In this document: positions 3,201 to 64,000 of the stretch, in pieces
How positions within the stretch are numbered: position 1 is the stretch's first letter
How the letters are laid out: every line of letters begins with the position of its first letter
From: Branchiostoma floridae
Taxonomy: Eukaryota > Chordata > Leptocardii > Amphioxiformes > Branchiostomatidae
Assembly (NCBI RefSeq): GCF_000003815.2
Contig: NC_049995.1
Span: 14,102,262-14,166,261 of the forward strand
Direction: 5' to 3'
DNA: 64,000 bases
Notes under the pieces: generated by a model
Databases searched by the model: none
Seen by the model: only the letters and a program-made list of their open reading frames with translations
Told to the model about the DNA's origin: nothing
Translations under genes and position numbers: made by a program

Positions 3201-6200
3201 CCCAGGAGGCTCCCGGCCGGCGAGTGTTGTTGAAAGTCATGATGGGACGAGCGGCAGCTCTGGGAGTGGGAGGAAGACTCCAGACTGGGAACAGTCGTCA
3301 CAATCATCAACTAGTGAATATACAGGTATGTACCACTACACACACCGGGGAACAGTCGTCACAATCATCAACTAGTGAATATACAGGTATGTACCACTAC
3401 ACACACCGGGGAACAGTCGTCACAATCATCAACTAGTGAATATACAGGTATGTACCACTACACACACCGGGGAACAGTCGTCACAATCATCAACTAGTGA
3501 ATATACAGGTATGTACCACTATATACACCGGGGGGAACACTCATGACACTCATCAACCATTGAATATATAGGTATGTCAAGTTTTATATGTCTGCTTTGT
3601 ATGTTTGTGCAACTCAAAGGGAGCAAAAGTTTAAGTTTGTTTTTGGTTTTCCTGTGTTTCGACAATTTCCAGTATACGCAGTGCAACGTTGCTATACGTG
3701 GTCAGTACCGCTATCACAAGTATCACAAGCAATATTGGGTGAAGTCTAACAGTAACATCTCTGTTTCTCCATGTGTCAGATCTACTAGCCTTTTGATAAA
3801 ACCTATGCCACATTCAACTACATACCACACCTCATAGTGGATCCATTATTTCATTCTATGACCGCACCTTGGCCTAGGACTGTTGTATTGAGAAATGACC
3901 TGAGTAGTTGAGTGCCAAATGGCAGCCACTCTAGCTAGCTCCTTGCAATTCAGCCCCTGGCTGTAAAGAGAGAGCCAATGAAAATAACAACACTTCAACA
4001 CTTTGTCACGGCCGAAGCTGTTTGAGATAGTACCAAAACATGTAAGCAGAGTCACGGGAAAAGCTCCACGAGAAAGTGCGGGTTCCCGCCTCGGGAATCT
4101 CTCCACGGAAAAGCGCGGGTTCCCGGACGTCCTCGAGACGGGATTCTCTCCACCGGGAGCGAATGTTCCCGGACGGGAATTTCACCCGACGGCACCGACG
4201 GTGCCCGCAGCCCACTCGCCGATATAGTGGAATACGCAACGAAGTTTCAAAGAAAACTGAAATATTTCACGCAACGTTTACATATTTCAAATAGACAAAT
4301 ATTTGAAATAGACAACCTTGCACTGTCATAAACATTAGCAGTACGGGGATTTTCGCTAGTGGGCTGCCGGGCGTCTTTGCGCGCAAGCGTTCTCTCCGGA
4401 ACATTTGGAATTAAACATGGAGGGTTCAACCTCCTTGGAATCAAACCTTTCAAAGAAAATTGAAATCTATCCAAGAACGTTGATATACTACGGTGTACTG
4501 TCAAAGCAATCACCCCCACAAATCATCGATTTTTTTTTACAGCTGCACAGATAAAGGTATAGTAAAACGAAATACGATAAGATCGCGTTCCGAACATCAC
4601 AGCAACTTTGTTACCGAGAATGCAAAAAGAAACAAAAAACGACTTACCTTTGGATGGGGGAGACTCGATATGGATCTTCAGAGCTTGGTGTTGACAACTG
4701 CAACTGTTGTGTACGCTAAAGCTACATCGGCGTACGCTAAAACTACCCTGAAACTTAGTAAACACCGGCCAAGCACCCACGTAAATCGCACTGCATCAAA
4801 ATTCCAAACCCACGCTACCTAATTACATATTCATAGGTCAAGGGTCACATTCATGGGGTCACGGGGTCATGGTGTCCTCATTACATATTCATATATCAAA
4901 GCCACCAAGCGCTACCACCAACAACGATACATTGTCACTTAGCATAGGCTTACACAAGTGCAAATACCGGCAAATCGGCACAATGTCAAATTTACATATT
5001 ACGGTAATTCTAATCAACAACAAAAAAAGACATACACATCACATAAGACGCACACGGTGACCGTCGGTACGACATTACTATATACACATGACGTCTGCCG
5101 TAGAAAAAGTAAGTGTAGCACATTCAAAATACACACATGTGGATATCTACACCTCGGTAAGCACCTAATCGGTAAATTTACATACTACGGTACATTTTCG
5201 ATGGAAGAAAAAAAAAACACAAAACAATAAGATACATAAACTTGTCGAAAAGAATTAAAGGAAAAAGATAACCATAAAAAAAACAAGACTCTTTCAACCT
5301 CCTTGACAAGACACACATACATAAGCTAAAAATACATGACATTGTACATGTACTTCATATACAGTATCATCATATACACATGACGTCTGTCTACAACATA
5401 TGGATTTTCACATCACATCACATCAAGAAAAACTGGTTGAACATGATCCTAATGTCAAACATATGTAAAACATGTTGGAATAGTTCGGTAAGACAGTTGT
5501 CAACACAAGGTCCTCTTTCAACCTCCTTGGTCTACATGACATGTTTCACCTTCATGCGCCACAATCTGCACCAAAAATGAAAAAAAGAGATTAAAAAAAA
5601 CACAGCCTAATAAAAGGATAGACAAAGGCGTCAACAGGCCAAGGTAAAAACATTTTTTTTCTGATGTTCATTACCTACGACAACGAAACAGTGTCACTTA
5701 GCATAGACTTACACAAAAAACATAAGAAAGACATACAAAACTGAAAATCTACAGTACCGTCGGCAAATCGGTAACATGTCTACTAGGGTACATTTTTCAT
5801 AAACACAAAAGAAAACAACAATATACACATGCATAAGACCTTACATTTGACATACATGCCGGTGACCATAAGTACACATTACGATATACACATGATGTCT
5901 GTCTAGAGAATTTCTAGGCAAAGGCACAGCCCCAACACCGCACAAATCAGCAACTTTACACAAATCAGCAAATTGAACATGTCATAGGAATGTATCGTAC
6001 GCAACACGGGCACCACTTTGTACTTTGAAAATGATAACAAAAAAAAAAACATTTGAATTCAGAAAAACTTGTTGATCGTATGCTAATGTCATTTGTAAAC
6101 ATGAGATAGTTCCATAAGACAATAGCCTACATGCTTAACCTCCTTGTGTCATACTAACAATCTATAGAAAAAAATGAAACAAACCAAAAAAACTTTTAAA

Positions 6201-9200
6201 AAATCAAGCTTAAAAGGGAAACAAAAACGTCAAGAACGTAAAATCATTTTCTCTGAACTTTCTGTGTAGGGGTTTTCTCCCCTAGATTTTCTGTGTAGGG
6301 GTTTTCTCCCCTAGATTTTCTGTGTAGGGGCTTTTCTGCCCTATTTGTACGGATTTACACGTTGCATTGCATGTTTTTGAGTGCCAAGAACAAAGAAACA
6401 TGAAACATGAAGTTCGACGGTGTCATGTAGGCCAGCTGTGGCTGAATCCTGATGAGGCTGGAGTTCGCCTGTTCATTGACCTGAGAGTTGATGGACCGGA
6501 TGTCGACTGCAGCGGTATAACTGTCCATGCAGTACCCTAGCGAACAGCCGACATGCCCCTTGAAGTGGAACCGGTCCACCAGAAACACGGTCTTCTGGAA
6601 GAAGTGTGGCTCCCTGTTCATCGCGTACTTGTGCAGCTGACAACTGTTGTCGTACACGACTACTCTGGGGGCCACCGGGAACCGTGTCCTCAGGATCTCG
6701 AACGGGTGGCGGGGCGATTCACAGCTTTGCATGGCAGTGAAGCCATAGCACACGCCATGTGGACAGAACAGGGTAAACAGCCCGGGCGTGAGCGAATGGT
6801 GACCATACGACTCCTTCCGGCAGCTGTCCTTCTCCCTCGACTTACTCGCTTCCTCAACAGCGTACCTTGGCAGACCACAGAGCTGAGGAAGGGAAGGGAA
6901 AAAGGAAAGAGTAGATGTAGGGGGAGGAGCGGGGTAGCAGTCAGGGGAAGGTTTCTCAACCTCCTTGAAAGTCTGAATGAGTACAGTCATGAGGGAGAGA
7001 ACAAGAGCAGAAATGTCTGGAGGAAGATGGCCTGCCTTGGTCACACTACAGAGAAAATCCGTCAGTACCGGCGCCTTCTCAAAAAGATAAGCAGAGTACC
7101 GATGGAAACGAGAGCTCGTAAGATCGATCGTACCCTCTGCCACCATCTGCATGATGCGAATGGCTTTCTTGTCACCAGCCATCTGTATCATCCCACACAC
7201 CGGCGTACTCCTTGCCACCTCAGACAGGAACGTGCTGTACTCTGGCGGTGCGCGTGTTGCATGTCCCTCTGCCTGCAGACGCCTCAGGAGATCTGTCACA
7301 TCGCTACGACCCGACTGGATCAGCTTGCCCTGGAGATCAGCCATCTCTTCTTCGCTGATCCCCAGCTTACCTGTAAACTTACCCCTGCCCCTCCGTTTGT
7401 TGCCCGAATACCGGAGGAGCAGATCCCGTGACTTCGCACAGGTGATGAAGACACGTCGGCTGTGGTTCGATCCGGTCACTAGCTTCTCAGGCTGGGCTCC
7501 TGCAGCTTCAGGTGTGGACAGGTACGGGAGGAAATCCTTACGGAACCCAAGCATAGTACCTAAGGATTACACAAAAGAACAATAAGGTCTCAAGATCTAA
7601 CCTCTATGCACAATACTAGTATTTCGACAGATAAAATGAAAGCAGATAAGAGATAAACTTACCGTCACACACTATGATCTTGGGTTCCGGGCCGCATTTG
7701 CTACAGGTGTACACCTACAGTTTGGGAAATAAAAATTGCTATTATAAAGCGTCTGAATAGGTTCAAGAAATATAGCACATTAGAATTCTGACAGTACTAA
7801 TGTGCATATGATATACTTGTGAATTTTTCACCTTTTCCCAATCGATGACCAGTCTGCGGGCCCACGAGTTCCATGCCTGTCGCAACTTCTCGTATGGGAT
7901 GTTCTCGGGATGGCTGCCGCATGCACTTCGGATGTCATTGCAGACGCGTTGTGTTGTCCGCAATGGCTGCTTGCCTTGTACCATCGAGCTTAGGTAGTCC
8001 GCCAAGAGCCCGAAGTAGAACATCACCCTGTTTGAATGCAATACAAAGATACGGTAAGTATAGCCTTCTTTTATCTCGGTGCACTTACGTAACATAATAA
8101 TTGTAATGAATGAATGAATGAAGACCTTTATTGTACCTTTTTGCCCCACTGGGCTAAGTATAGGTCACACGGTAGCAATCAAATATATGTTACAATGGGA
8201 ACAATCCTACACATCTATATATGCAGATGTGCATCTAATCTATTCTAGGACACTCGACTTCCTCTCGCTCCTTGGTAATTGCATAAATGTAGCTAGGTGT
8301 ATAGTTGGTTAGAGTTAGTTGTAATAATAATACAATATTGTATTATATAAGATATTGCTTCTCTATAAACTGATCCGCACGATTCAAAAAGTCAAAGAAT
8401 AGAATTAAAAAAGGAACAGGACATGCCTGTTGTCGAGGTTGTGCAGCAGGTCTGCCGTTCCGTCATACATGTGGCGGCATGCGCAGCTGCCGACGGTGGG
8501 TCTGTAATAGACCACCCGGGAGTGGCGCTTCCCGTCCTCCCCTAGGTAGTCGGCCAGGTTCTTGTACCGTGTATAGATGATAACACGGTCGTGTTGAACC
8601 CACTGTTGCACAATAGGGTCCCGGGTGTCCCAGCCATTCCCGTGAGTGCATGTACCAGATGGCACATCTGGCACAAGGTGGTACGGGAATGTCTCATCCT
8701 TGTCTTCATACCTACAAATATTGAATAGAATTAGTTGATGCTGCATGATGCATTGCAATCAGCTGTAAAGTATTGAAAAATTGGTCAGGTAATTCATACA
8801 ACTACATGCACTTATTCTTACACTGACATACCTGTCAAACTTTTCCCGCATATCCGATGTCCATGGGCAAGGGACTGGGGATGTGGAGACAGACTTAAAC
8901 GTCGGCTCGTCTAAGGTGGTGAATGCTACGTTCACATCCACGTTCCTTTCATCACACCAGTCCTTGTACGTCTCCACGTGAGAGCAGGCCATCTGGCGCC
9001 GACTGCACGTCACACAGGAAAGTCTTCCTCCCCCAACGCGCTTCAAGATTCCTGAAAAACATACAAAATAATGTTTAACTTTAACTGTTATATTGTAGTA
9101 TATGACTTCCCTAACAAATCTCGCACCGAACAAAATACTGTCACGAGACTGCTAAGCCATGAATGAAGCTATTCTTACCATATGTTTCCCCGTCGTGAGC

Positions 9201-33700: not shown

Positions 33701-35619
33701 TCAAAAGTGAACACTATTTGTTAACATTTGTTTCATGTTGTTGTTATTTAGTATGAATGACTTGTTTGTACTTGCAGGTGAGAGTTGTAAACGGCAGCAC
33801 CTTGTACGGACCCCTCATTCCTCAGGAGATCAAACGCCTGGTGCTGAAGAAGTATAGAAAGGTATAATCTGTGTCTTGTCATGTCTTAATCTTAAAGACG
33901 CCCAAGAAGGTAAAGTTTTCCTTTCTTCCAACACACGGATCAAATTTTCAATGACCACTGCCGCCTTCTTAAGGATCAATACTGATGACCAATCACTTCT
34001 GAACGTAAACTTCAGAGAGATCATGTGTCTTTAACTCGAGTTTACATTCTGAAGTGATTGGTCACCAGTATTGATCCTGAATAAGTTGACAGTGGTTGTT
34101 AAAAATTTGATCTGTGTGTACTTTATTTTTTTTTGTGTGTGGGAAGAAAGTTCAGCATTGTACTCAGGGCTGTTTCCAGCTTGAATTTTTTCCCGTCCCT
34201 ACAGCATTGTTTTGAAGCCCATGTTGTTGATTTTCCCGGTTAGCTATGTCAGTTTTAACTTTAATTACTTTTAAACATTTTCAACAGTTTCATGACATTG
34301 TGATTTTTGGGACGGATGGGGTAAAAATATTTTATGTACCAACAAGCAAATTTCTGTCACAGGGCAGATTCTGGAGACAGCTCTGATTGTATAAGTACTA
34401 GTACACAGTAAATGTGTTGTTGGCTAGGAAAAACTGTCCATTAATTGACCACTTATTTCCTTCCCTTTCCAGGAACTTCTGGATTCCCAGAGTCTGCTGG
34501 ATGTGATCACCCCCCTGGTCGGCCGCCCCCTCCCCGCTGCTGTCACCCCCCTGCAGGACAGACCCCCCTCTGGAGTCAGCGTGGACACACAGACATCACC
34601 TGCATTTTGCCATGGCAACGGGGGAAACAAGAGCAATGTGCAGGTATTGGATATGTACAAAGAACATTTGCAAATAGATGTGCAAAAACTAGGTGTGATA
34701 GGTCGTTCAGAGTACTATAACCAGCTACTACCGCACTGCGTGCCTGCAAAGCTGGTGTGTTACATCAAAGAGAGGTTATATACCAACTTTATCTATACAG
34801 GTACACTAAGGGGATGAAGTATTGTGTTTGTGTGTGAATCTGTATGTGTGTGTATATGTGGTGTCTGTGTGTACTCTCCAACTTGTCCAAGCAGAAGTTG
34901 ATGGTCTTCTTGAGTTTCTGTAATTCCCTGTATACATACAAATGTACTGCAGTGTTACCATACTGTACATTCTCATTGTAGGGATAAAGTCTGCCATCTT
35001 GCCCAATGTTAATAAATCGGGATGCTGTATATCTACTAGTAGACAATGTTAATAGTAATATGATTACTTCTACACAGCATACATATCTATTGTATACATG
35101 TAACTTTATTCACCAATTCTGTACTTCGAGTGATTCATATAGTGATATACACACTCTGTTGTTCCTCTATATCTGTCCCAGGCAACCCCCATACAGAGCC
35201 ACATCAATAAAAGCAAGGTGGCATGTCTTGGAACCCCCATGCCTAGCCACATCACTACCAGCATGGTGCATTCTGCAACCCCCATGCAGAACCACACCAG
35301 TAAGAACAACGCCTGCTCCATAACCCCCATGCACACCCACGTCAGCAACAGTAAGATGTCTTCCCCCATCGAGACTCCAAAGCAGAATCTTCAGACAGCC
35401 TTGGAGACGTCGGTCTGTACACCTTTCGTAGGGAAGGAGTCTTCTAGCGAATCAGACATTACAGGTACATAGTAGCAGACATGTCCTTCTTTGTAAAACA
35501 ATAATAAGTTGGAGGAATAAGTACGTTTTTTAATTTCTGGTTCATTACAGAATTCCTACTCAGTCACATATTCACTATCCGCGTCATCATTTGTTGTTCC
35601 CCATCAGGTGAATGTTAGA
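30766..35619 (+). CDS. Schlafen-like protein (SLFNL1-type AlbA_2 domain)
   Basis: Coding exons: 30766-30816, 31395-31496, 31920-31992, 32629-32749, 33239-33356, 33778-33861, 34473-34643, 35182-35464, and a proposed 11-base last exon 35609-35619 (TAG), total 337 residues in frame. If the last intron is retained, a stop follows at 35470. Residues ~45-183 match the Schlafen AlbA_2 fold: LLNSYGGIVRWGV (60-72), a charged EDEYKVVVD segment, FSPRIDPSLYRLDFV, IRVIELRVQAGQELLYM and NGSTLYGPLIPQEIKRLVLK. This is the order seen in SLFNL1, whose exact role is not settled. The N-terminal segment is short and no helicase follows. The C-terminus is Ser/Pro-rich with four TPM-x-x-H-like repeats in exon 8 (ATPIQSH, GTPMPSH, ATPMQNH, ITPMHTH). 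Confidence 0.85.
30920..31093. mobile_element. Tc1/mariner-like MITE, CAGTAGAATCC ends, TA target
   Basis: The left end CAGTAGAATCCAGTTAATTG and the right end, reverse complemented, CAGTGGAAGCCGCTTAATTG form ~26-bp imperfect inverted repeats. TA flanks both sides (30918-30919, 31094-31095). Interior repeats of AATTGCACGAAAT occur. It lies in the first coding intron of the Schlafen-like gene. Confidence 0.8.
31225..31420 (+). repeat. decoy copies of the start of Schlafen-like exon 2
   Basis: The real exon starts CCCAGAGCACCAGAAAGCTG and continues TACCAGCTGGAG. Related strings AAGTAAGAAGCTGTATCCTC (31233), CTAAGAAGCTGTACCAGCTT (31257) and CTAAGAAGCTGTACCGCCTG (31297) precede it. The first is preceded by TTCCCAG, an acceptor-like site. 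Confidence 0.6.
33921..34150. mobile_element. foldback element with ~80-100 bp imperfect arms
   Basis: The left arm CTTTCTTCCAACACACGGAT...ACCAATCACTTC pairs with the right arm GAAGTGATTGGTCACCAGTA...GTGGGAAGAAAG with few mismatches plus a poly-T insertion in the right arm. No coding capacity and no clear target duplication. It lies in an intron of the Schlafen-like gene. Confidence 0.7.
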
Positions 35620-48129: not shown

Positions 48130-48290
48130 GGGTTTCAAATCCCTTGAAGCCTCCAATCAGGAGGCAGATGCAAGCTGATTGGTTATCAGGCACTCCAGTT
48201 TTGGCTCCCACTTTTGGCGGGAAACTCGGTATACATGTGCAGGCTACCCCACAAGATTACTTCATCTTCTGCACAGACAACCAGCCGGTA
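48130..48290 (+). promoter_or_regulatory. candidate promoter of the protease-transposase gene: CCAAT boxes and an E2F site
   Basis: CCTCCAATCAGG (about 48148) and the inverted CTGATTGGTT (about 48174) flank a stretch that leads to TTTGGCGGGAAA (48213-48224), an exact E2F consensus. A donor-like CCAGCCGGTATGG follows at about 48280, which could end a 5' untranslated exon. The next acceptor (AG 48439-48440) is 14 bp before the ATG at 48454. Regulation in S phase would follow if the E2F site is used; this is inferred. Confidence 0.5.
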
Positions 48291-48453: not shown

Positions 48454-51400
48454 ATGTGGACTGATGAGTTGCCACAGTACTGTGACCTGTCACAGACTGC
48501 ACAGTACAGACCTCTATCCCAGGAGGATCGAGAACTTGTAAGTTGATTCTTCTCTGAAGGATTTATTCAAATCATTCAGCATTTGTGTAGTAGACCTTAC
48601 TCGAATTGTTACTGTGCCCCCATGACCTAGACTGCCCATGACCCACACTGAGGTTCAGGGATACACCCCACACAAATCTGGGGGTATACATATATGCAGC
48701 AGCCGCTTGAATTGGGGGTGCAGAAATGTGTGCATACACACCGAGTATTTCCATGGCCCAGTGCTGTTCATACACAGTACATACGGTACAATATACCCTC
48801 TCAGATTGTGGTGGCCTTTATGCCCCAAAATGGCTGCAATGACTAGATACTGTTGGGTCAGCATCCAAAATCTGCATTTAATTACCAAAAATTTGTCTTA
48901 TCCTATCTCCAGGTCACCAAACTTTTCAAAGATGCTAGTCCCAGTGGAAAACGCGGGGTAGACTTGTTGACATTACAGGATGGAGAATGGGTCCCAGACG
49001 ATGTAAGTATCTGTTAAAGATATCATTTTGATGGGAGCATGATTGAACTAATTTCTGCTGTAACTTAAGTCGTTATAGTTTGCATCTTCAGATGTATTAA
49101 TAGCTGTAGATGCCCTATTTAAGATGCACCTATCTTCAGACGGATTTCTTTCCTGATACACAAGTGGTGTTTGTTGACAACAAATGTATACTTGAGAAAG
49201 ATTAAAGCAACAATGATGGTAGCACTGAATAGCAGTAACACTAAGTGGCAGCTCATGCCACAAAATACAGCAGTCACCATCAACTGCACATAAAATGTTT
49301 GGGAGTCGGCCTCATAGAGAAACTAGATTTCTGTTGCCAACTCCTCTCCATCTGTGAAGCTGAATAAATAAAGGAATAGATAAATATGCTACGGCCGCGT
49401 GGCGCGTTGGTACACCCGATCCCTCGATCTCGGAAGTTAAGCAACGCGACGGTCCGGACAGTGCTTGGATGGGGGACCAACCAAGGACGTCCGGATTGCT
49501 GTAGCCTCACGAAGTTTCCACGAAATCGTCTTCCGGGAGGGACGTAAAACGGGGGTCCCGTGCTCGAGGAGGTGCCTCGACCACGTTAAACAGCCTCATT
49601 ACTCATACTGGGTACCTACTGGCTGGCAAAATACACCAGATGATTAAATATTAAACGGTTTTTAGGTTGGACCCGTTATGGATTTGTTTGTGTTTTGAAG
49701 CAGAATTTGATTTCTGATTCAGAAGGTTTCATGTATGGAAAAGGTCCGAAATTGTCTAGAATATGTTCCTCATTATGTTTTTGATAGAATATTTGCGCTT
49801 ATTGTTACTTCTGTCATCATGCGTGTTATTGAGCATGTTCAGCGATTCTGATTCATAGTAACATGTTAACAAGTGTGATGTGATTTTTTTTGTCAGTCAC
49901 ATTGATTAAAACTTATGTTATTCCCACCAAACCATACCATGTCTATTGATACTGTATGGCTACCCTAGACACAGTGTCCTTCAGAGGGAAACATAAAATA
50001 CCTTTTTGCGAAGTGAAAAAGCTTTATATTTAGGAATGACACTGTTGGATCTGCTATAGTGTTTGTATAGTAGAAAACCTACAGTAGAAATACAACCGTT
50101 TTCATGAACACTGCCCTCTGCAATTGACCACATTGTTTTTGTAAGGTTGCATCGCCATAGAATTACAATTGTTCTGTCAAAAAGATCATGCTATAACATT
50201 CTGTCTAGTGTTCAACCCTTCAGTTCGTTGTATTTATTTACATTCAACACAAATGAAAACAAGCGAAATACAAAAGCAATGATTCTTAAATCAGGACAAG
50301 ATGTCTTAGTGTAACACCAAATCACACCTACATTCACAAATCTTGCAGCAGTTACCAGTTGTAACCCAGAATGAGGAATTTTCATGAACAGCATGATTGT
50401 ATTTCATACTCAAATTATTACTCAGATTAACGCGACCAAACTTCATTAATTGGATCCTCACCATTCTGTTGGCAACTATAGACGAAGTGCTGTGGGTTTC
50501 AGCTTTGAGCATGCGAAAAAAAAGGCAGCACACCATTTTATATATATATATATACAACATTACAAAAATATCTCAATGGGAAAGTAGCCTTAAGTAGCTT
50601 TTGATTTGACCGAGTACCATTTCTTTATCAACCTAGATCATTGAAGAGTACCTGGAAGTCATTCAAACGTCAGCGCCTAAGGTAACTTTGACTTCATTAT
50701 TAATAAGTACATTGGCAATGGATTTTGTGCACTTAAATTCAAAGGAAATGTAACTGTACACATTATGGCATAATTTATGGCATTGTACATATTAGTCTTC
50801 TAAAGAGTTTGTTGACTCAGTGATGTTTCTCTTTTGAGAAATCACTATTCTTGTGGATATCATAATCATACGAAAAAAATGTTTCAGACTTGCAAAATTG
50901 AGTATTTCAACTACAACGTCTACTTGAACAAGTTAAGGACAAGGCCAGTCTTCGACAATTACAAGAGTAACCAGAAGACACAGAAGGTATGAATGATTGT
51001 TTTGTTCATACTAAGGATGTAATAGTGAACATTTCTTGTTCATACATGTTCGCAGTACATGTTTTCCTTAGTTTTTGTCTCAACAAGTCAAACTTTAATC
51101 AAACCTGTTCTGTTCTATTCTAGGACATACAAGGAAGTGACATAGTTTTCATGCCAGTTCACCAAGCTAACCACTGGGGGCTTCTTGTAAGTTGCTCTTA
51201 TTATTTGGTCCCTTACAGCAACAACTTTTGGTCCATATTATTTTCTTTTAGCTTTTTGTTGTGGTGTCTTTGTTTGCGCTTTCATCAAGTTGTTGTAAGC
51301 CTGGTACGCTTTGAACTGAGGGCATAGAATGAAACAAATAACAAAGATAAGATCAATGGACTCTGTCACTGTTGCTGTGCTCGAAAGTAGACTGGATCCC

Positions 51401-54400
51401 ACACTGATGAAATATGGATAATTTCTGCCTGCTTTTGGTGATAAAAATAGGACGTGAGGTTGACAGCTCTTTGCATAGTCAAACAGGGCAAACAACTTCA
51501 CTTTCCTCTGACATTTTGAGACCTTAACACATCGAGGAAGTCGCTGTAGTGATAGAACACCGAGATGGCTGCGCACAGAGGGAAGGGGTGATGACGTCAC
51601 CTGAATAAGCCCTAGGCTAAGGAAAATAGCTTGGCTTGACAGAAGCATCTACAAGTTCTAGCCTTATCTGTGGGGCTAATCATGTGTAGCATATCAATTA
51701 TCCATGCCCTGCATGCAAGGGGCTAAACAGTGTGTCTTCACCCAGCCCTGTTTTTATCTCCGTCATTTTATTCTTAATTAAGTAGAAGACCAACTATTTC
51801 TTCATAATATATACAAACCCAGCCCATATAAAACAGAACACAAAACATAACCATGACCCTCTTAGTAGAGATGTCTCAGCCATTTAAGTCTACACCTTCA
51901 AAAACCTTGGCTTAGTGTGGAACTTCTGGGGAACATGATTCTTGGGCAAGACCCCCAGGTACAGTAGTATCTTGGCCCAGTTTGGTACTTATTTGTGACT
52001 ACTAGTAGTTACCCTTCCCATAGCAGTCAGCTCTGTACAGGCCTTCTCCAGTGGGTTTAACATCAGTATCTTACATGTAAGTAGGTCCTGACAAATTGAC
52101 CATGTAATTGGTAAGACAGTCAGCATCACATGGGGTTAATGTGACACAGTAACTGTTATGTTTTTTTCTTCAGACATGTACATGTACATGTACAATGTAC
52201 ATTTTATCATACACAAAGTCTGAGTAAGAATTTGTGATACAAAGAAGTAAAGATTACATCATAAGTTTGTATTTTTGGAAACCACTTCAGTAATTGGTGA
52301 CAAGTGACTCTTTCAATCAGGCTGACTAGAGGGATCTGTGTCCCACAGGGGGTGACCCAGATACAACAGGCAGTGTGTACAGTGTACAAACAGTAGTTCA
52401 TGGGAGTGGGTCAATGACTTGGCTTACATGCATTTCTGTTAAAAGCAGACTGTCTTGTTGGCTGTTTTCACTTAAATTCTTGTTAACGCCAAATCACCTT
52501 TTTTCTTAGGGTAACCTAGATTCCACCCTCACACTCAGGGTTGACATCGCGGCAAAGCCTAACGATATCACCCCTGACAATTCAGCCAGGGTATTTGGGT
52601 ATTTGGGGCGCCCTGCTTATGAATATTAATGAGCTTGCCTGATTTGTCGCGGGCCAATCAGCGACCGGATTGCAAGTTTCGAACAAACAGCGTACGGCGC
52701 GGCGTGTACAAAGATCTGTTTATCTTTGCGTGATGGTAATGTTTTTTTTTTTCGTATGCTAGGTCGGTACATGTATACGGTGATGCCGTGGTTACCCTAT
52801 ACCCACAGAACCGACAAATGTTAAATTTGGTGCCTGATAAAGACGTCTGGACGCTGAAAGAACGTTACGCCGGTACTGTTATCTTGCTCTTGAATATTAA
52901 TGAGTCGCCTTATATGGCGCCTTTCCGAGCTTTCGACAACAAAAAGCCGATAGGCTGACAGTTGGTTAGAAGCCACGCCCCAAATACCCAAATACCCTGG
53001 CTGAATTGTCAGGGGTGATATCGTTAGGCTTTGCCGCGATGTCAACCCTGAGTGTGAGGGTGCCTAGATTCGTTCTTTTAAAAAAAAATGGGTATTTAGA
53101 GATTTTCGGTCATCGACGTGGGTTTCAAATGTTAAATCTTTCAAGATATTACGATGTGAAACTACGTTCCATCGACTTAACGATACCCAAATACCCTATT
53201 TTTATACACAACGGATATAGGTTACCCTACGGATAAAGGTAAACTAACGTTAAATATACATGTTGTTTATTTTGAAAATTTACAATCTTGTTTTGTTTAC
53301 CCATGCTTCTTTTTTCCCCCACCTTATCTCTTTTTAAAACTTTTACATTCTGCAGAGGATGTCATCCATAAACTTTAATTGTGCCCTTCAGTGGAAAATC
53401 ATCTAGAAAAGTTGGCTGGAATTTTTTCAGTAGCCGGGTGAAAGCCCCGGGGCCTCTAGTACACACAGTTATTACTATTTTAGGGACTAACAACTTAGGA
53501 CAGCCTGTATCAAGTGACCTGTGTGACCATGTCACGCGGTTTGACATGGTAGTCTCCACTTCTTCTTAGCTTTTAAAAATTCTTAATTTTGTGTGTCCCA
53601 TTTGAATATGCAGGTGTATTATCCAAAGAAGAAGTGGGTCATTCTGTTTGACTCATTGCAAGTATCTTGCTGCATCAATCAGAAGACAGCTTTTGAGAGA
53701 GCAAAGTAAGTATTTCTCCGTCTCAGCATCTCAGAGTCAGTCGGACATTTAAGACCACCCAAGACGCCACTTGCCATAATTTGATATAGTTAATGATTTC
53801 TTTTAAGATACCATTTTTATGTGCTTGATAATCATGGAAAGACTAATTTTGTCAATATTATCATAATTGTGTGGAAAAGTTCCATCAAGAATGATAAATG
53901 ATGAGCAGAACACTGACATATAGAGCTTCTTTTGTATAGTATTTTTATAAAAATAGATACATTTCATTCCAAGTTCCTTTTATATGAGGAATGAAACATT
54001 TGAAGCAACATCATTTTCTTATGAATAAGACAGTTCAAAATTAAATTGCTTCCTTTTTCACCCAGACGTTTCTTGACTTTCTACTTGCCTGAAAGTGAGC
54101 TAAACTGGAAGGACTGGACGTTCTACATGCCCTCACCTGATGTAGGTCTTTTCTTTCCTCAACTTAGAAATTATTATAATGATGAAATAGAATTCATTTT
54201 ATTAAGTGACGAGTATATTTACACTGACGAGTCATTGTTGTGGTTTATCATATCAATTTTTGACTTCTTATCTAAAAATGATGGGAGTACTGTACAATGT
54301 AGAGCTATTTATACATGACTGATTGTATGATGTGTATTACAGATTAAAGTTTATGAGTCATCAATTTTGGCTGTTGTTTTGAAGGCTCATAATCATGATC

Positions 54401-57400
54401 ATGATCTATATGCACTTATAATATAAGTGCATATAGATTTACAGTTACAGTTACTAACTGTAAATCTAATTTTAAAAAAATCACCAAAACATATCCATAC
54501 AAAAAAAAATGTATCAAATTGAATGTTATTCAAGGCAGCTGGATTTTCTTCCTTTTGCAGGAAATTCCCCAACAAAAGAATGGGGATGATTGTGGTGTCT
54601 TTGTTTGCCAGGTATGACTGTTCTATTCATAACTCATTAAAGATGGTGAAATTTATTTGTTTATTCAAATATTTCCCTTAATGGCATCAACATTAGAGAG
54701 TTGCATGAGGTTTTACACCACCAGTACCTTGCTTGTTATACCTAACTGCACAGAGTGACCTAAAAACCAAGCCCTGAAAGATTGCTGTATGTAACTGCAG
54801 TTGTGCATGATGTAAGGAATGACTGTTAAACTGCTTGGCACACAACTAATCAGTACCTAGTACCTGAGCTCAGACAAGAAATACTGGCACATGTAGTCAT
54901 GCCTCGAAGTTTGAAGTTGACTTATCAACCTAGGATTGATGTGTACACTTTCCCAGAACTACAATTGTATCTAGATGCTCGATGTCATAAAGTACTGTCT
55001 ACCATTCTTATTACACATCCCGTACAAGACAGGTCATCAGTGTAAATTGTAACCAGCTGCTTCTGGACTGTAATATTGCTTTGAAGGTGTTGTGTTATGC
55101 CAAAGGGCAGTTTGGGTGTAATTTTGCTTATTGGGCTATACAATCATCTTTGTTTTATTAGTGGTTATACCAGCTATACAGAATGCATAATCAGGTCCAC
55201 TACTATTGCATCTTAGATTATAACTCTCTTTCTGTTTTTCCTTCAAGTATGCATTCCATCTTGCCAACAAGATACCCCTGAACTTTTCACAGGTAAGCCA
55301 ATTCAATACCATTTTGTCAGTTTTTGCAGCCAAGCATTTGATAACATTTTTGTCAGTATATGATGTGCAGCCAAGCAAGAGCACAATGTAGCATACAGTA
55401 CTTATCATGCAGTTCAGGTAATTGAATCCTTGGAATAGACAGAAGACATTTAGCTTTGCTGAGGGAAGGATATTATAGAAAATATATTGTAGATTCTAGT
55501 AATTAATCAATTTTCAAACATATGCGTTTTAGGATTTTGGATGTTCATGTACATGTACGTAATGTAAGGGTGTCCCTTTCATCCCATAGTCTACAAGTAC
55601 GTGATTGTACAAATGTAGCACTGCGTCACAGGGTTGTCATTCAAAAATTCTGATTTCCGATTTCCAACATAATTGTAGATTCCAGACCCAAGGTCAGCCG
55701 GGCCCCTAGTAGTGAGGAGTGGCCTGTTACATAAGCTTCAGACAGTGGCATTTGTGTTATACAGACTATGTGAATAGCAGAGGAGTTAAAGCCATGATAC
55801 TCAGTATTCCATTTCTACATTCATGAGTCAACAATGCACCTTAGTTTTTTAAGTTTCTTTTCAAATTTGCTTTATTCAAATTTATTTTGGTCTATCCAGG
55901 CAAACAGGGCAATGTTACTACATCTTGGTTGAAATGGAATTGGGGACATTTTCCCCCACATTAAATTGTTCTCATATGACATGTAAAATGGAGCGGAGAT
56001 GTGTTGACTTCATCAAATGTCTTATTTTTACTGTGTTGGAATGCAGATTTTCTATATAAAGCTAAAGCTGTAACGGATTATTTCTGCACCTGTGTATGTT
56101 TGGATAAGATGGAAATATCAAGCACATATTATCATTACCATCACATCAAGCTATTCTGTACTTCCTTATGTGTTGACCAATGAGACTCATTATCTATATT
56201 TTCTGCAGGCTGCAATTCCTAACATTCGTAAGTGGATGGCACTGGAGATACACAGTGGATCCCTGAGGTATCAAAATTTCCACTTCACTCTAGATTGCAA
56301 ATTGACATAAAAAAATATCTGTATCTGTATTTATATTGCCGGTATAGCCGCTGTTCGGCGTAACACACCAGCTTTGCAGGCACAACATCAAATTCAAGTG
56401 TACTCATGAATGTGCACAATCCCTTCTTCGCTAGGTTCTTAAACTTTGAAACTATATGTTTTCACCTTCTTGCTCGTGACATGACTTCTTGGATTTTGCA
56501 GGAAAGAGCGCATTAAGCTGTTACCACTTGAAGCAATGCCAACAAGAAGGTATGTGCTGTTCCATCTACTAGTCATATTTGACACTAAGAAAAATTACTT
56601 AATGCCAATGTGCAATGTAGTTTCTGCTAACTGATGTTGATTTACACTGAAAATGTTTTTTGTCTTCTTACTATTCTATACTGTAACAAATTGAATGTGT
56701 AATCTTCCATGATTTCTGTGGCCACATACATATGTTTCTTGCAATATCAATGAATGATCCTACCTTTAAATAGTGCAAGATGTAGTAACAATTCATTTTG
56801 TCAGAGACAGAAGTAAAGGATTTGGCTTATATGATTTGGGTTATCATGCTTGTCTCTATGCCATATTTTCTCCTGTTAAATTGTCTTACACCAGTTTTGT
56901 TTGTAATAAGCAAATCTTTGCTAAAGATGTATTTGTATTTTTTTATTAGCTACATTTTACATATTAACAAACTTTTGTTTCTTTATCTAGGAAAAAAGTG
57001 AGGGATGATTCAAAGAAGCCCCGTCACAGGTCTCCCCCACCAATGCCAGGACAGAGGTCATTACAATAACTTATAATTCGTTTGTGCACATGCAAACATA
57101 CTTGTATTATATCATAGATGAATATGCAATGTGGTTTTGTTCACTGTGCTTCAGTCTGTAAATCCAGGTAATGAAAGAGCCGATATTTCTAAGCAGGCCT
57201 CACAATTGTTTGTTCAGGCCAACAAAGTCATTGCTGTTCATGGTACCAAATGAATGCCTAATTGTGGACAATGTGCACTTACATGTACATTGTTACTTAT
57301 TACATGTCATAACTGTTGCAGGTGTGCCGTTATCGCGAGAGCGCTTCGTTCAGCCTTGGAGCACAGCCTGAACAGTAGTAGTTCTGGTAATGATGCAGAC

Positions 57401-60400
57401 ATAAGCAGTTGTGATACATCTTGTAAGTACACTTTCTGTTTAAGTGAGTTGATTTGTTGCATTAGCTTGTTGGTTATCAAGAATGAAATATACAATCTGG
57501 TAACAACATTCAATTTCAATTTTGTTAGACTTGCCAATAGAAATATACATTTCATCTGTTTCTGAGTGATGCAGATTTTTGTAACACACCACTATCCACC
57601 AATTGTTGGAGAGCAAAGTAGGGCACGCTCTTGTTGCTTTGTGAGGAAATGCCTCAAGGCAGACTTGAGTCTGAGGATAGCTTAAACATAATTGCATTAT
57701 TTTGTGTTCCCATTACATTTTACCTACTATCTATACTGCAATGGAAGTGCATGCACTTTGGGTCATCCCAAAAATGCTCATATATATACTAGTATAAGCT
57801 TGCAAAATTTATAAACATTTAATGGTAGAATTTTAGGTGAAATCAAATCTGCTATGAATTACTAGAAATTTCCAAAGGCATGCTATATAGTCCACTTGTA
57901 TTAAAGTCAAACAGGTACTAATATTTTGTCGGCTCAATCAAGCCTGTTTTGTTTTGACATACATGACATTGTACATTAATCATCATATTACAGTTGACGA
58001 TGATTCAACTTCGTCGCTGACAAGGCTGCTCACATCTACTCCAAAGGGAAAAACAAAGCCACACCTCTTCAAGAAGAAAAAAGGTACAATTTTCATGTTG
58101 ATGAAATATCACATAGAGAGCATTAACACTGCTCACTTACAGAAATTGTGATACTAGCAGTTGTTCAACAGAACAATAAAGAACAGCACTGGTGACAAGT
58201 GCACCTTGAAAAGCCATGATCATTCCATAATTATGTACAAGAATGAAATTAACTTGAAATAAAAAAAGTACCAATCTGTGTTACAGCTGAAAAGGCAAAA
58301 AGAGGGAAATATGCTCAGATGGGTACTTCAAGAGAAGCCATCACAACAGCCTGGACTACGTACTGTGGATGTGGCCAGGACTGTTGTGGGAAATTGGGGA
58401 CTGACATCATACGAGTTTGCAGGGATAAGTTTTGGAGCTATAATCAAGACAAACAACGAGAGTTTATCCAAGGGGCTCTGGAAGCAGGAGACAGGAGGAA
58501 AGATGGTGGATCATATGAGTTCAGCATCCAAGGCTACAAGATATGTGCCAGGGCTTGGTGTCTTGCACATGATGCAAAGAAGTCCAGGTAATGTCACCAC
58601 ACACATTACAGTACACTCAGACTACATGTAGCTGTTCCAAACCCAGAAGCTATCCAGTTTTGCCATCATCTATGGCAAATTTTCCATTTTTATGAAAATT
58701 TCTCTATATTTATCATTTAAAAAAGCAACCATATGTGGGAAGGGACTGGTACCCTGTACATTCGGCCCTCATTCAACGTGGCCATGGCCGCATTGGACAG
58801 GTGGCCATCTTGGGAAGTTTGCTTCATGCTCCTATAATTTTTTTGGGGGAAAAAAGTGGCCGTTATGGCCAGATGATCTGCTACTTCAAGAGGCTTAGGT
58901 TTGACTGTAGTTCATAGCCTAGTTTCAAACCACTCCAGACCAGGACCCAATGTCCCTTTTTAAAATATCTATGTAAGGTCAGGGCCTGAAGCACTTATCA
59001 GTTTTAGCATGTATTCCATAATACTGATAGAAGTAGGCTGAGGTATCAAATAAAACATAACGTTAGATATATTCTTGATGCTTTGCAATCCCTCTATATG
59101 CATTTTTTTTTAAATTTAGATATACGCATACATGTACTATCCTCTTCAAACCGTTACAGGTTCTATGAGATTGTAAAGGAATACGAGGCTGGAAAGAAGG
59201 TTGTGCCAGATCTACGGAATGGAATGAAGTATGAATCTCGTAGGTACTTAGAGGCCAAGCAGTGGCTAGGTGAATATGCCAAAAAATATGGTGACATCAT
59301 GCCAAACAGCAACAACATCCACCTGCCTCAGTGCCTTCAAAAGGTAGATGTATTCAACAGCTACCTGGAAGAGATGTCTTACGAGAACCATCTGCAACTA
59401 ACATGGTTCAAGGCCATGTGGAGAAAAGAGTTCCCTAACCTGAAAATTCCACCGGTAAGTACTGGATAATACTTCTATTACTTATTAAGTGTTATTCATT
59501 GTTTTAATTTTTTGAGGACAAGTGAATGTGACGTGGTCCTGACCCAAAGCATACTTACTTATACAAAAATCATTATTGTCCATAGGGAGGTACATTGTCA
59601 TGAGTAGGGGTGGGTACCGGTACAAAAAATTCAAGTACAGTCCAGGTCCAGAGGATCAGGTCCAGATCCAGATCTTGACCTAAATCTGGACCTAACTGTG
59701 AATGGAGGATACTCAAAACAATGGTCCATTTTGCTGCAAAGAAATCTGTTTGGTGGAGTATCCTACATGTACCTTCACGTAAACACTGCTAACTGCCTCT
59801 TTATAGAAAATTCGTAATAAGGCTGACTGTCAACTCTGGGGTTCAGAGTCATCTTTATCTCAAGTTTGGAGTTTGGACATACATACAAGGACATTTTGAC
59901 ATATCATCAATGCATGATAGATAAAATACCTAGGTCAACCCTTTTTCTGGAATTATGGCATCCAGAGGGCACAAGGTACAATGTACATTGTACATGTACT
60001 ACATATTAAAGTCTACTTGGCTCTTGTTACTTTTTTGGACCAATAAGCCTCAAAACATGTTAACACCTGCCGCCATATTGCCGGTATAATCTGTTCATAT
60101 GCATATCTTTCAAAATGTGGTATACTGAATTTTTTTCAGGTCCGGTCAAGTAAGAAAAAACAGTTTTGCACCAGTAAACTGCACCGGTACCCACTCCTAG
60201 CCATGACCCAAAGCATTATCATGGCCATAATCATAAACAGTGCATGGGGCTACAGAAATTACAAGTACAGTTGTACTTATAATATCCATCTTGAGTGCAA
60301 CAAGAGGTATGGAAAGTAGTAAGAAAACATTTTGCAATCAACTGATTTACTCACAGTTCTCATTCCACTTCTCAAAACATATGAATATGTTCTACAGATT

Positions 60401-62446
60401 TGTCAAACCATGCCTTTGAATTATCTTCTCCTTAGAGAAATCGTTTCACAAAATGTGATGAATGTGAGGAACTCAAGAAACAGTTAAAGGAGGCCAAGAT
60501 CGAGGATGACTTCAATGCATTGAGAGAACGAAGACAAAGCCACCTTCAACTTGCAAAGTAAGTGAGAACCTTCCAGTTAAAGACAGGTATTAAATTTCTA
60601 CATTTTGAAATCAATATTGCACCACTTTGAATGCATTTACCTGAGCATATTATCATCTTTCCAGATGGCATGAAGTAGAAAAAATATTTTTTTTCATGGA
60701 AGTATGTGGTTTGACTATGATGTTAAACTAATCTGAAAGTATAGCTAAAGTATCTAGATTAAGTTTGTAGATGACATGAGTATCTATATAAGTTTTGTTG
60801 TTACAAAGCAGTGACATACAATTTGATACACCTTGTCATCCTTGCAGCTCTGCACGCCAGAAATATTACAAACACATCAAGAAAGCAAAGCAGTACCCTG
60901 ACAATTACCTCAGCCTGATCATCGACAGCATGGATCAGAACAAAACAGCGTTGCCCCACTTTTCCACCCCGACCAAGGTAATCAATAATAAGCTGCTAAA
61001 GTACATGTCGGTCTGAACATATGCATTTATTCATTTTGTAGGGTTTATAACTACATGTATCAGTAATTGTTTTCATGGTTGTTTTTGTTTTGTAACAATG
61101 AGTAGCCCTTAGTATTGGCAAAACCTTTGTTTACAAGAACTAGGTGAACCACTTAGTAATAGTAAAATGCAGAACAATGTGTGTGCCTGCCTCCGCTGCA
61201 TGCACATGATAAAAGTGAAATCAAGAAGAAAGCAGCTCTGGCACTCGTGGAGAGGGATCTTGACGAATGTACTCTGCACCAACTAATGGGACACTTCTAC
61301 AAAGTCTGCCAGTGCAGAGTCCCATGTCTTATACATACCCTGCTCTACACGTGCAACCTGCCCACCATCAATTTAACACTATGCAGTGGCTCTCGCTCCG
61401 ACAATACCTATACTCTGTGGGTGTCGTCTTCAACAAAGAATAGTATAGCATGTTTCTTTGGCCATTTCTGTTCAACTCAGGCTATTTTTGACGGAGGTTT
61501 CGAAATAGAATAAGGGGTTCCATCTTGTTCTATTTGTTCGATATGACGTTCGATCAGGATCAGTCCATTGGATCATATGTCAATTTTGACTTAAACTGCA
61601 CAATGATTCTTTAGTTAATGATTTGATTTATAAACATTTGTGGTATGATATAAACATTTGTGGTATGATGAACTAAGGATGGAAATGATAGCCCACTGTT
61701 AACAAGTGACAGCAATTTTGCCTTTTTATAAAGAATGGACATTTATTAAACAAATCCTGTTTCAACTGATTAAAGAGGTCAATTCAAAGCACTACATGGG
61801 GTAAAACACTTTCTATTGCTAACAACAAGGATGTGATATGATTTAATACATGTATATTAGGTAAACCATCTTTCACATTTTTATCAGGTGCAAAATTGGA
61901 TAGATCTTGACTTTATCTGAATTCATCTAACCCAATACAGAATCAGTCATCACTGGAACAGATGAAAGTTCACCTAACAGGAGTGTTGGCACATGGACAA
62001 AGGAAGTCCTATGTGTATGCATGGACTTCCAAATACCGCATGGATGTGAACATCACGACAAACGTCCTGATTGATGTCCTAACAGACATTTCTAAGGTGA
62101 GGCCTAGTGATTAAGACCACCCTCCTTGACATTTTCCTATGTGATAATATGTCACTGATAAATTCCGTACAAATTTTTTAGGTCATACTGAATATTTCTA
62201 ATTTGTGATGAAGAAAATTAAGTCATGTATATTGGGAAATCAGTACTGCTCAATGGGAAAATGGTTTCTTGCGAAACTGTAACCTGCAACTAAGACCTTT
62301 AAATTTGTGCCATTGCCTTGCAGGCGAGAGGAGGTCGGCTACCCAGCACACTATATCTGCAACTGGACAACAGTGCAAAGGAGAATAAGAACAAATTCAT
62401 GATTGCTTTCTGCACTTGGCTGGTAAAACTGCAAGTCTTCCAGAAG
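48454..62446 (+). CDS. Ulp1/C48 SUMO-protease-like domain fused to a DUF7869-type RNase H-like transposase domain (3' end outside window)
   Basis: Exons: 48454-48537, 48913-49002, 50637-50681, 50888-50986, 51124-51186, 53614-53705, 54066-54141, 54561-54611, 55248-55292, 56209-56267, 56502-56549, 56991-57056, 57322-57422, 57994-58083, 58287-58587, 59160-59454, 60436-60557, 60848-60977, 61941-62096, 62324-62446. All keep phase: 712 codons without a stop, ending at a donor. Residues ~45-215 are a complete Ulp1-type cysteine protease: GEWVPDDIIEEYLEVI, NHWG (His123), LFDSL (Asp140), IPQQKNGDDCGVF (Gln188, Cys194). A basic linker follows, then CGCGQDCC (363-370), CDEC (542-545), LIIDSMDQNKTALPHF (Asp602) and LQLDNSAKENKNKF (Asp686). 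The last two look like the first two acidic sites of a transposase fold; the third site, usually near a GHTHED-like motif, was not found before 64000. Many introns suggest a domesticated gene. Confidence 0.8.
49388..49645 (+). mobile_element. 5S rRNA-derived SINE
   Basis: The head follows the 5S rRNA gene: GCTACGGCC at the start, GATCTCGGAAGTTAAGCAAC (box A region), AGTGCTTGGATGGGGGACC (box C) and GCTGTAGCC at the end (49388-49506). The middle is too diverged, and the sequence continues into a non-5S body (GGGACGTAAAACGGGGGTCC, GGGTACCTACTGGCTGGC) to about 49645. This is therefore an SINE3-like element rather than a 5S gene. It lies in the second intron of the protease-transposase gene. Confidence 0.75.
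52524..53062. mobile_element. 539-bp foldback transposon with 87-bp perfect inverted repeats and 9-bp target duplication
   Basis: The left arm starts CACCCTCACACTCAGGGTTG and the right arm ends with its reverse complement. By eye all 87 bases match. The exact 9-bp CCTAGATTC flanks the element on both sides (52515-52523 and 53063-53071). The interior has CpG-rich unique sequence and no gene. Perfect arms and duplication imply a recent insertion. Mutator-like elements make 9-bp duplications, so this is a probable MULE MITE. It lies in the intron between the His- and Asp-encoding exons of the protease domain. Confidence 0.9.
54404..54467. repeat. two overlapping perfect palindromes
   Basis: ATCTATATGCACTTATA (54404-54420) and its exact reverse complement (54422-54438) are separated by one base. 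The second arm overlaps a further inverted pair, AGATTTACAGTTA (54435-54447) and TAACTGTAAATCT (54455-54467). It is an intronic, cruciform-prone site. Confidence 0.85.
58725..58912. mobile_element. partial MITE of the CAGTCAAACCTG family
   Basis: The right end CTTAGGTTTGACTG (then TA) at 58899-58912 and inner GCATTGGACAGGTGGCCATC and AAGTGGCCGTTATGGCCAGA match the family at 16312 and 37672. The left terminus (GGGACTGGTACCCTGTACAT region) is degenerate. Confidence 0.6.
59605..60199. mobile_element. 595-bp hAT-like element, TAGGGGTGGGTACCGGT ends
   Basis: The left end TAGGGGTGGGTACCGGTAC and the right end, reverse complemented, TAGGAGTGGGTACCGGTGC differ at two positions. Flanking 8-mers GTCATGAG (59597-59604) and GCCATGAC (60200-60207) match at 6 of 8, compatible with an old hAT 8-bp duplication. 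The interior has CCAGATCCAGATC-type short repeats and no gene. Confidence 0.75.
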
Positions 62447-62994
62447 GTAAAAATGATCAGCTTTGATGACATTGTCTGACTGACATTTTGCAATATATAG
62501 CATGTATGCCAAATAGCATGGTAACTGTATTTGATGTCTAAAGTACATTATTTCAATCACCTTAGAACTAGCTCCCTGGCAAAAATTCTACAAATTCTGG
62601 AGCCTTAACTTCTTATCGGCACAGTCTTTTGTTTCTTGACAGATTCATACATAATCATACTCATTGAGCACAATTTTCAAATGTGAAGTCCCCTTGATAG
62701 CCAAAAGTCTACAATCAGCCTGTAAATGGATTGAGAAAGAAAGTGAGCTCAGGTACTTATTAGGGATTGTGTTAAAGATTCCTCACACCCTTGGCACATG
62801 ATATGAATAATTAATATGGTGTCAAAGCAGTCTAGTTACGAACATCCTTTTACCTACTGCCATTAAGTGAAAATTGAATGTCAAATACCCAATATGCAAA
62901 AAATAGCGATCACCTGTATATTGAGCTTTAACTCAGCGAACAAAACTGAGAAGACAAACAAACCTTTAGAAATACCACAAAGTATTTAGACTTA

Positions 62995-63730
62995 GACCCC
63001 ATTCACACTAAAAAAACGATTCGAATAAAACATGTAAATTTAGCAGTGTGAACGCTCCCAAATCACTTGGATTTCATTGAAACGAATCCTTCGCGATCCA
63101 CCTCGGGAAGGTGGATAGAACTGGGGCAAGTGGATAGAAATGCGCTGCGGGGAGTCTCGATTCGTGCGATTCGGCAGTGTGAACGCGCAAATGGATAGGA
63201 TTCCGCTTGCTCCGATGTTCATTCAGGAACTTGGGGTCTTAGTTCGCATCGCACGGGAAACACAACACACGCCAGATCGCTTAATTTTTCAGCTAGCATT
63301 TTCCGCCGTGTTTCACTTGCAACAACAATGAGCATAAAGAAAGAGGAGTCACCATTTGCCAAATTGACAACCGAATAAACGAAGCTGCTCGTTTTCATCT
63401 GGGAGTGGGAGGAGTCGCAGAAAAAGCTCGGAAGGTCCATAAAAACAGGGACATTTATGAAGATACATCTAAAGGAATGGCGGAGTTAAGAAATCCCTTG
63501 ACCAGTGCAGAAATAGAGTGAAGAAACTAACCACCAACTACTGCAAGACGTAGCGATACGTCTGTGAAACGCAACTAACGTTTTATTCGGATAAGACTGA
63601 GGGCGCACTAATCGGATTATCGAAGAGCAGTGTTAACACAATTTTGGATCGGATAGAAATTTTTTTATTCGGATAGATGTTTTATTCGAATCGTTTTTCT
63701 AAGTGTGAACGGGTTCTTGTGAACGGGGTC
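62995..63730. mobile_element. 736-bp PIF/Harbinger-like MITE with TTA target duplication
   Basis: The left end GACCCCATTCACACTAAAAA continues with ACGATTCGAATAAAA. The right end holds the same motif inverted (TTTTATTCGAATCG) and closes GTGAACGGGGTC, with a partly doubled AAGTGTGAACGGG. TTA flanks both ends (62992-62994, 63731-63733), fitting the TWA target of PIF/Harbinger. No transposase is present. Confidence 0.75.
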
Positions 63731-64000
63731 TTATAGTCTGGTGGCAGAGACCGATAAGCATGCAATGCGGTTCATACAAAGTTTTTCTGCTGTTTCCATA
63801 CCTCTGAGGTGTGCTCTATCAGAATCTGGATGATGCCACTCTGTCATCATTTGGCAATCCGCACAATATGCAAATTAAGGCGGCCTTTAAGGAAATTCTT
63901 GTTTTCGTCAATATCTCAGTAACCACACATGGTATCAAATTGATTTTGGTATCTATCACCATGTTTTGAGGGGTAAAGAATCAGATAAAGCCATTTTAGT
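63731..64000. other. no exon recognised; presumed intron of the protease-transposase gene
   Basis: I looked for a continuation in phase 0 carrying a GHTHED-like motif and did not see one. The gene therefore probably continues past 64000. Confidence 0.4.

Follow-up and report, generated by a model that had tools for sequence, protein, structure and literature searches.

Which kind of gene joins a Ulp1-type protease to a DUF7869 domain, and does such a gene belong to its host or to a mobile element? The question is raised by a chain of exons on the plus strand of a 64-kb stretch of lancelet DNA (the window: C17:14102262-14166261 of the 513-Mb Branchiostoma floridae assembly, C-numbers denoting the contigs of that assembly). 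An earlier note, made from the letters of this stretch, had described the chain as an intact, intron-rich fusion of a protease and an RNase H-like transposase, and as an apparent host gene made from a transposon. We think it probable that the gene belongs to a conserved host family of at least three members, that a single protein carries a Ulp1/SENP-type protease, a basic linker, a Cys-rich module and DUF7869, and that it would act by the mechanism proposed in the last section.

A protease and DUF7869 in one predicted gene

Rebuilt from the window letters, exons 1 to 20 (48454-62446; Table 1) open at an ATG, have GT at every donor and AG at every acceptor and join into a frame of 712 amino acids (aa) with no stop codon, just as the earlier note had it. 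The description of the gene as intact had to be extended: within the window the Pfam match to DUF7869 ends at position 92 of 192, so that the gene is incomplete there, and a scan of the three plus-strand frames of 62448-64000 found no remaining part of the domain. The next 10 kb past the window (L009) supply exons 21 and 22 and a TGA stop codon, which brings the complete predicted gene to 22 exons and 953 aa. The joins of exons 20 to 22 are supported because in the 953-aa protein the DUF7869 match lengthens to cover positions 1-187 of 192, and this full span strengthens the gene model.

Pfam places Peptidase_C48 (PF02902) at aa 98-230 of the 712-aa protein (60.4 bits, E 3e-16, against a cut-off of 20.7; 59.7 bits in the 953-aa protein) and DUF7869 (PF25273) at aa 619-712 (114 bits, E 8.3e-33, cut-off 26), extending to aa 619-807 and 238.3 bits in the complete protein. 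Both of the domains expected earlier thus lie above their cut-offs. The closest solved structures are SENP1 and SENP2 (E 9e-20 to about 1e-19, 73.6 bits, aa 44-229 in a search of the PDB), and the C48 part holds the catalytic His123, Asp140 and Cys194 and the oxyanion Gln188, all at the positions first given for them; judged by these residues, the protease is likely to be active. The motifs CGCGQDCC, CDEC, IIDSMDQ and LDNSAKENKN, also correctly reported, start at aa 363, 542, 600 and 685, respectively, and basic stretches (aa 250-264, 333-344 and 933-939 among others) suggest nuclear entry.

Three acidic residues stand out in the second half of the protein, Asp605, Asp686 and Asp728, with spacings of 81 and 42. 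Across the loci aligned at E<=0.01, Asp605 is found in nine of ten places, Asp686 in 8/8 and Asp728 in 16 of 17; both exceptions, as well as one of the nine places with Asp605, are alignments that run into intron sequence. The three acids are compatible with a DDD core in a putative RNase H fold.

The same exon order on three chromosomes

Two similar loci from a genome-wide DUF7869 search, examined together with their upstream DNA, are paralogues with the fused layout, one at C8:19.18-19.20 Mb and one at C16:7.57-7.59 Mb. All 22 exons are found in order at C8 (exon 11 by DNA comparison only) and 21 of the 22 at C16, where exon 11 has no match. The joint between the two domains (exons 11 to 15) holds no Pfam domain; its motifs recur in both paralogues (RHRSP.P.P in exon 12, DADISS, ADISS or DADVSN in exon 13, TSTPK in exon 14), and the donors of exons 12 and 13 occupy the same positions, that of exon 12 reading CAG/gtatca at C8 and TAG/gtatgt at C16 (donors were unscored). 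Because exon order, linker motifs and donor positions are shared by the C8 and C16 paralogues, the proposal that protease and DUF7869 form one gene is supported.

The three genes are old. Protein identity is 61% between the gene and its C8 paralogue (768 aligned codons; proportion of synonymous differences, pS, 0.79, of nonsynonymous differences, pN, 0.25), 59% between the gene and its C16 paralogue (706 codons; pS 0.82, pN 0.28) and 61% between C8 and C16 (685 codons; pS 0.78, pN 0.26), counted over alignable codons only. Since synonymous differences have reached saturation along the entire length, we quote no dN/dS value. In the exon-level alignment all three paralogues agree at Trp54, Asp57, His123, Trp124, Asp140, Gln188 and Cys194, and also at Asp686, the GHT of GHTHED and Asp726. 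In another alignment one of the three places shows Phe at position 123; we interpret this as the alignment having fallen in intron sequence of L042, the C16 paralogue region. The same region has a second copy of exon 14 (L042 4088-4183 and about 4655-4725), possibly an extra or alternative exon.

Three is a lower bound for the number of fused genes, since a Pfam C48 search over the whole genome gave eight matches, none of which is one of the three known genes, whose exons are presumably too short to reach the limit of the search; the count also takes no account of DNA upstream of two related loci, at C7:18.18 Mb and on C308.

Upstream of exon 1 the earlier note had proposed a promoter of CCAAT/E2F type, and it is the E2F part that stood. 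The perfect E2F consensus, 241 bp ahead of the ATG, is the sole one in the 64 kb, against 0.04 expected (four of 100 shuffles had one), and it sits in a block shared with C8 and found in no further locus compared. The CCAAT/ATTGG pair taken alone is at chance (one found, 1.4 expected); at the pair, GCTGATTGG is also present in the C8 paralogue. Going by the site and its surroundings, the gene may be under E2F control. Beyond the block, comparison of the non-exon DNA of the gene with C8 gave short matches at E 0.009 or worse and one 68-bp match, of 56316-56383 to DNA upstream of the C8 paralogue (94%, E 6e-24), which is stronger than the promoter match. This match is not colinear, and further copies lie at window 34740-34805 and in L051, which suggests a dispersed repeat.

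Table 1. Exons of the predicted gene and features upstream of it (window positions; C8 and C16 are the paralogues on those contigs)
Feature	Position	Strand	Remarks
CCAAT ... ATTGG pair	48153..48182	+	upstream of exon 1; alone not above chance
Conserved promoter-like block	48195..48242	+	45/48 bases (94%) same as C8 paralogue, E 3.4e-14
Perfect E2F consensus TTTGGCGGGAAA	48213..48224	+	inside conserved block; kept in C8
Exon 1	48454..48537	+	start ATG; MW...LP..C kept in both paralogues
Exon 2	48913..49002	+	C48 N-terminal part; Trp54, Asp57
Exon 3	50637..50681	+	C48; weak in C8 (E 0.94); 8/11 in C16
Exon 4	50888..50986	+	C48
Exon 5	51124..51186	+	C48; catalytic His123, plus Trp124
Exon 6	53614..53705	+	C48; catalytic Asp140
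Exon 7	54066..54141	+	C48
Exon 8	54561..54611	+	C48; Gln188, catalytic Cys194
Exon 9	55248..55292	+	C48
Exon 10	56209..56267	+	C48 end
Exon 11	56502..56549	+	linker; in-order DNA match in C8; no match in C16
Exon 12	56991..57056	+	linker; basic RHRSPPP motif; weak donor; motif and donor position same in C8 and C16
Exon 13	57322..57422	+	linker; GNDADISS motif
Exon 14	57994..58083	+	linker; TSTPKGK motif; basic end
Exon 15	58287..58587	+	Cys-rich CGCGQDCC module
Exon 16	59160..59454	+	
Exon 17	60436..60557	+	CDEC
Exon 18	60848..60977	+	IIDSMDQ (Asp605)
Exon 19	61941..62096	+	DUF7869 positions about 2-53
Exon 20	62324..62446	+	DUF7869 to position about 95; LDN (Asp686)
Exon 21	67772..67926 (window-equivalent; beyond window, L009)	+	GHTHEDVDQ
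Exon 22	68384..68954 (window-equivalent; beyond window, L009)	+	last exon; ends in TGA

Several introns carry sequences of their own. Intron 2 contains a 5S rRNA-like sequence at 49387-49507 (51.3 bits, gathering threshold 38), possibly a short interspersed element derived from 5S. In intron 5, 52524-53062 is an element bounded by perfect terminal inverted repeats of 87 nucleotides; its target duplication measures 9 bp, a size by which we take it to be Mutator-like. Intron 20 holds an inverted-repeat element at 62994-63717 and, past the window (L009 1054-3054), a 2-kb repetitive stretch with one frame open for 666 codons. Elsewhere in the window, a minus-strand frame of 403 aa at 6355-7566 has a borderline match to a Kyakuja-Dileera-Zisupton (KDZ) transposase (26.9 bits, cut-off 26.6), with further open frames behind it to about 9.1 kb.

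Host gene, ordinary domain or transposon

The alternative that survives best, unlikely as we consider it, accepts a host gene family and takes DUF7869 to be an ordinary cellular domain without transposon ancestry, the fusion then serving a role other than one in chromatin. The 953-aa protein matches no Pfam transposase family at E<=1, neither the KDZ transposase PF18758 nor the Gypsy-type integrase core characteristic of Ginger1 reaching that level, and the DUF7869 half has no solved-structure relative, its top match in the PDB being at E 0.28. The RNase H-like transposase identity claimed for this half is putative. NCBIfam returned nothing useful and PHROGs only a match at E 0.064, and no relatives of the protein were found in viral contigs or in bacterial or archaeal genomes. 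A literature search found no paper naming DUF7869 or PF25273, and none on the C48-DUF7869 architecture. Against an ordinary domain stand the near-invariant acids 605, 686 and 728, whose spacings we take to be like those of DDE/DDD cores, together with the Cys-rich module and the basic stretches.

Ranking next, and in our judgement improbable, is the explanation that a family of DNA transposons with introns, its DUF7869 transposase carrying Ulp1, accounts for the three loci; these would be old members present in few copies that moved between chromosomes as elements and may still be able to do so. Transposases of both Ginger1 and Mutator can carry a Ulp1 domain, and one to four introns are present in some Ginger1 genes (PMC2836005). 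In the lancelet the copies with introns sit on different chromosomes and the genome search gave 70 exon-level DUF7869 matches, many of them on C6. An interchromosomal duplicate of about 24-27 kb, 90-99% identical (C16:3549864-3576610 and C4:28697631-28721765), holds a DUF7869 gene without a C48 signature, its two copies being recent duplicates of each other. The matches on C6 crowd mainly at 26.2-28.0 Mb, near one contig end, with near-identical neighbours (L029 and L030).

A 1.3-kb DNA probe (58200-59500) speaks against mobility. It found ten matches in the genome, a count that is a lower bound for repeats, and the only full-length one was the probe's own locus; near-identical full copies with terminal inverted repeats, the trait of an active transposon that the earlier note had wished to see excluded, were not found with it. 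The remaining matches comprise three pieces of exon 16 (125-156 bp, 84-88%) on the unplaced contigs C234, C222 and C384 and six in intron 15 (47-155 bp, 70-87%). Those three contigs (L002-L004) are 92-99% alike over longer stretches containing the exon 16 piece; some fragment has therefore been duplicated. Above the promoter-like block, nothing in 36001-48194 matches the 3.8 kb upstream of the C8 copy at E<=1e-3, and weak similarity (two matches, 70-74%) to the sequence preceding the C16 copy lies near 46.0-46.4 kb. One test of the ends of the C16/C4 duplicate found no inverted repeat, the ends running into tandem repeats and undetermined bases (Ns). A transposon would, moreover, hardly need a conserved E2F promoter. 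Of the proposal that a host gene was made from a transposon, the host-like features stand, and a transposon origin may still be suspected; these searches produced no mobile ancestor.

Intron richness, offered earlier as a sign of domestication, is ruled out as proof of it, as several other DUF7869 loci share its exon boundaries near positions 53/54 and 92-95 of the domain. Upstream of the equivalent of exon 15 there is no C48 signature at C16:3.57 Mb, C4:28.7 Mb (a stretch of about 9.5 kb with 100 bases N), C7:20.12 Mb or C10:0.92 Mb. Because the related DUF7869 genes examined show no C48, the protease probably joined an older DUF7869 gene, and in the simplest history it did so in one lineage before the three paralogues split. 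A further locus, C10:2.22 Mb, has equivalents of exons 20 and 21 only, with nothing in the 10 kb upstream, and is apparently a partial copy.

Several observations weigh against a conserved host family of fused genes. Some exons of the paralogues are weak by score: exons 3, 13 and 14 at C8 (E 0.94, 0.07 and 0.15) and exons 1, 3, 9, 13, 14 and 22 at C16 (E 0.001-0.11), so that exons 13 and 14 of the linker are weak in both (E 0.03-0.15); the coding scores of these two exons are unremarkable in the gene itself. The E2F site was not found in the 900 bp upstream of the C16 paralogue, and a transposon lineage under selection would likewise give pN below pS. Finally, the absence of C48 is weakened by Ns at C16:3.57 Mb (2682 of 9552 bases) and C7:20.12 Mb (1477 of 7251), and the stretch at C10:0.92 Mb, only 4.1 kb and thus less than the 5.7 kb that separate exons 8 and 15 at C8, is possibly too short; these gaps weaken the argument about history only.

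Could the chain be two adjoining genes, with exon 12 the last of a Ulp1 protease and a DUF7869 gene starting near the ATG at 57254? From the window alone this reading stayed alive. The donor of exon 12 is weak, reading through it leads to a stop at 57067-57069, the ATG at 57254 is in frame with exon 13, and DUF7869 loci without a C48 signature exist. Linkage in phase, to which the earlier note had appealed, is weak evidence across the joint: of 300 random stretches of the joint's length taken from the window, 105 gave some legal three-exon path in phase and 63 gave one whose score equalled or exceeded that of the proposed path (12.0), and in the real joint stretch an alternative path outscores the proposed one (17.5 vs 12.0). 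Phase agreement was thus ruled out as proof of fusion and is replaced by the comparison of paralogues. Two genes are nonetheless very improbable, since exons 12, 13 and 14 are each open in the called frame only and the exon 12 donor and the motifs of exons 13 and 14 have the same order and positions in both paralogues, which sit on other chromosomes, a conservation of linker exons that argues against separate halves.

A possible role and its relation to known systems

How might a conserved host protein of this layout work? In the mechanism that we propose, the gene would be switched on in proliferating cells through E2F, possibly with NF-Y, and its basic stretches would carry the protein into the nucleus. 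There the Cys-rich/DUF7869 half, with its three near-invariant acids spaced like a transposase core, would hold the protein on DNA or on a DNA-bound complex, and the protease would strip SUMO, or perhaps another ubiquitin-like protein, from proteins at the DNA so held; a role in chromatin would follow. A bolder version, which we regard as doubtful, is that the family represents ancient E2F-controlled SUMO proteases of the chordate branch whose still catalytically competent DDD domain binds or cuts particular DNA and which remove SUMO at those places, forming an undescribed cell-cycle chromatin or genome-defence enzyme. A constrained fusion of a protease with a transposase-like half, present in three ancient copies and with an E2F-type upstream block shared by two of them, offers a tractable system in which to study the role of deSUMOylation beside such a domain, and the family gives DUF7869 its first setting.

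Within the genome, the other DUF7869 genes share the recurring exon boundaries and the MDQ, DN and GHTH motifs but show no C48 signature in the stretches at four loci, some of them short or with Ns. On the protease side the gene resembles SENP1 and SENP2 in its catalytic His, Asp, Gln and Cys, and Trp and Asp positions of SENP1 align with Trp54, Asp57 and Trp124. It differs from them in placing the catalytic domain at the N-terminus, ahead of DUF7869, and the match is a distant one.

Ulp1-type proteases are found in several transposon lineages, where a role for them is only suggested, and Ginger1 is a transposase family with Ulp1 at the C-terminus that gave rise to the host genes Gin-1 and Gin-2 (PMC2836005). 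Ginger1, Gin-1 and Gin-2 thus offer parallels in the joining of Ulp1 to a transposase-type protein, in the possession of some introns and in the existence of host derivatives; unlike the lancelet gene, which lacks such a core and has its Ulp1 domain at the N-terminus, Ginger1 combines a Gypsy-integrase-like core with Ulp1 (or OTU) at the C-terminus. F-box proteins with a cysteine cluster from KDZ transposons have also been described, Ulp1 going unmentioned in the main text (PMC12062965). MAIL1 and MAIN illustrate how a domain related to transposons can function in silencing (PMC5418596). A last comparison is with PGBD5, which differs in having a piggyBac core and in being conserved to vertebrates, but which is likewise an intron-containing, single-copy, transposase-related gene conserved in the lancelet (PMC3902484).

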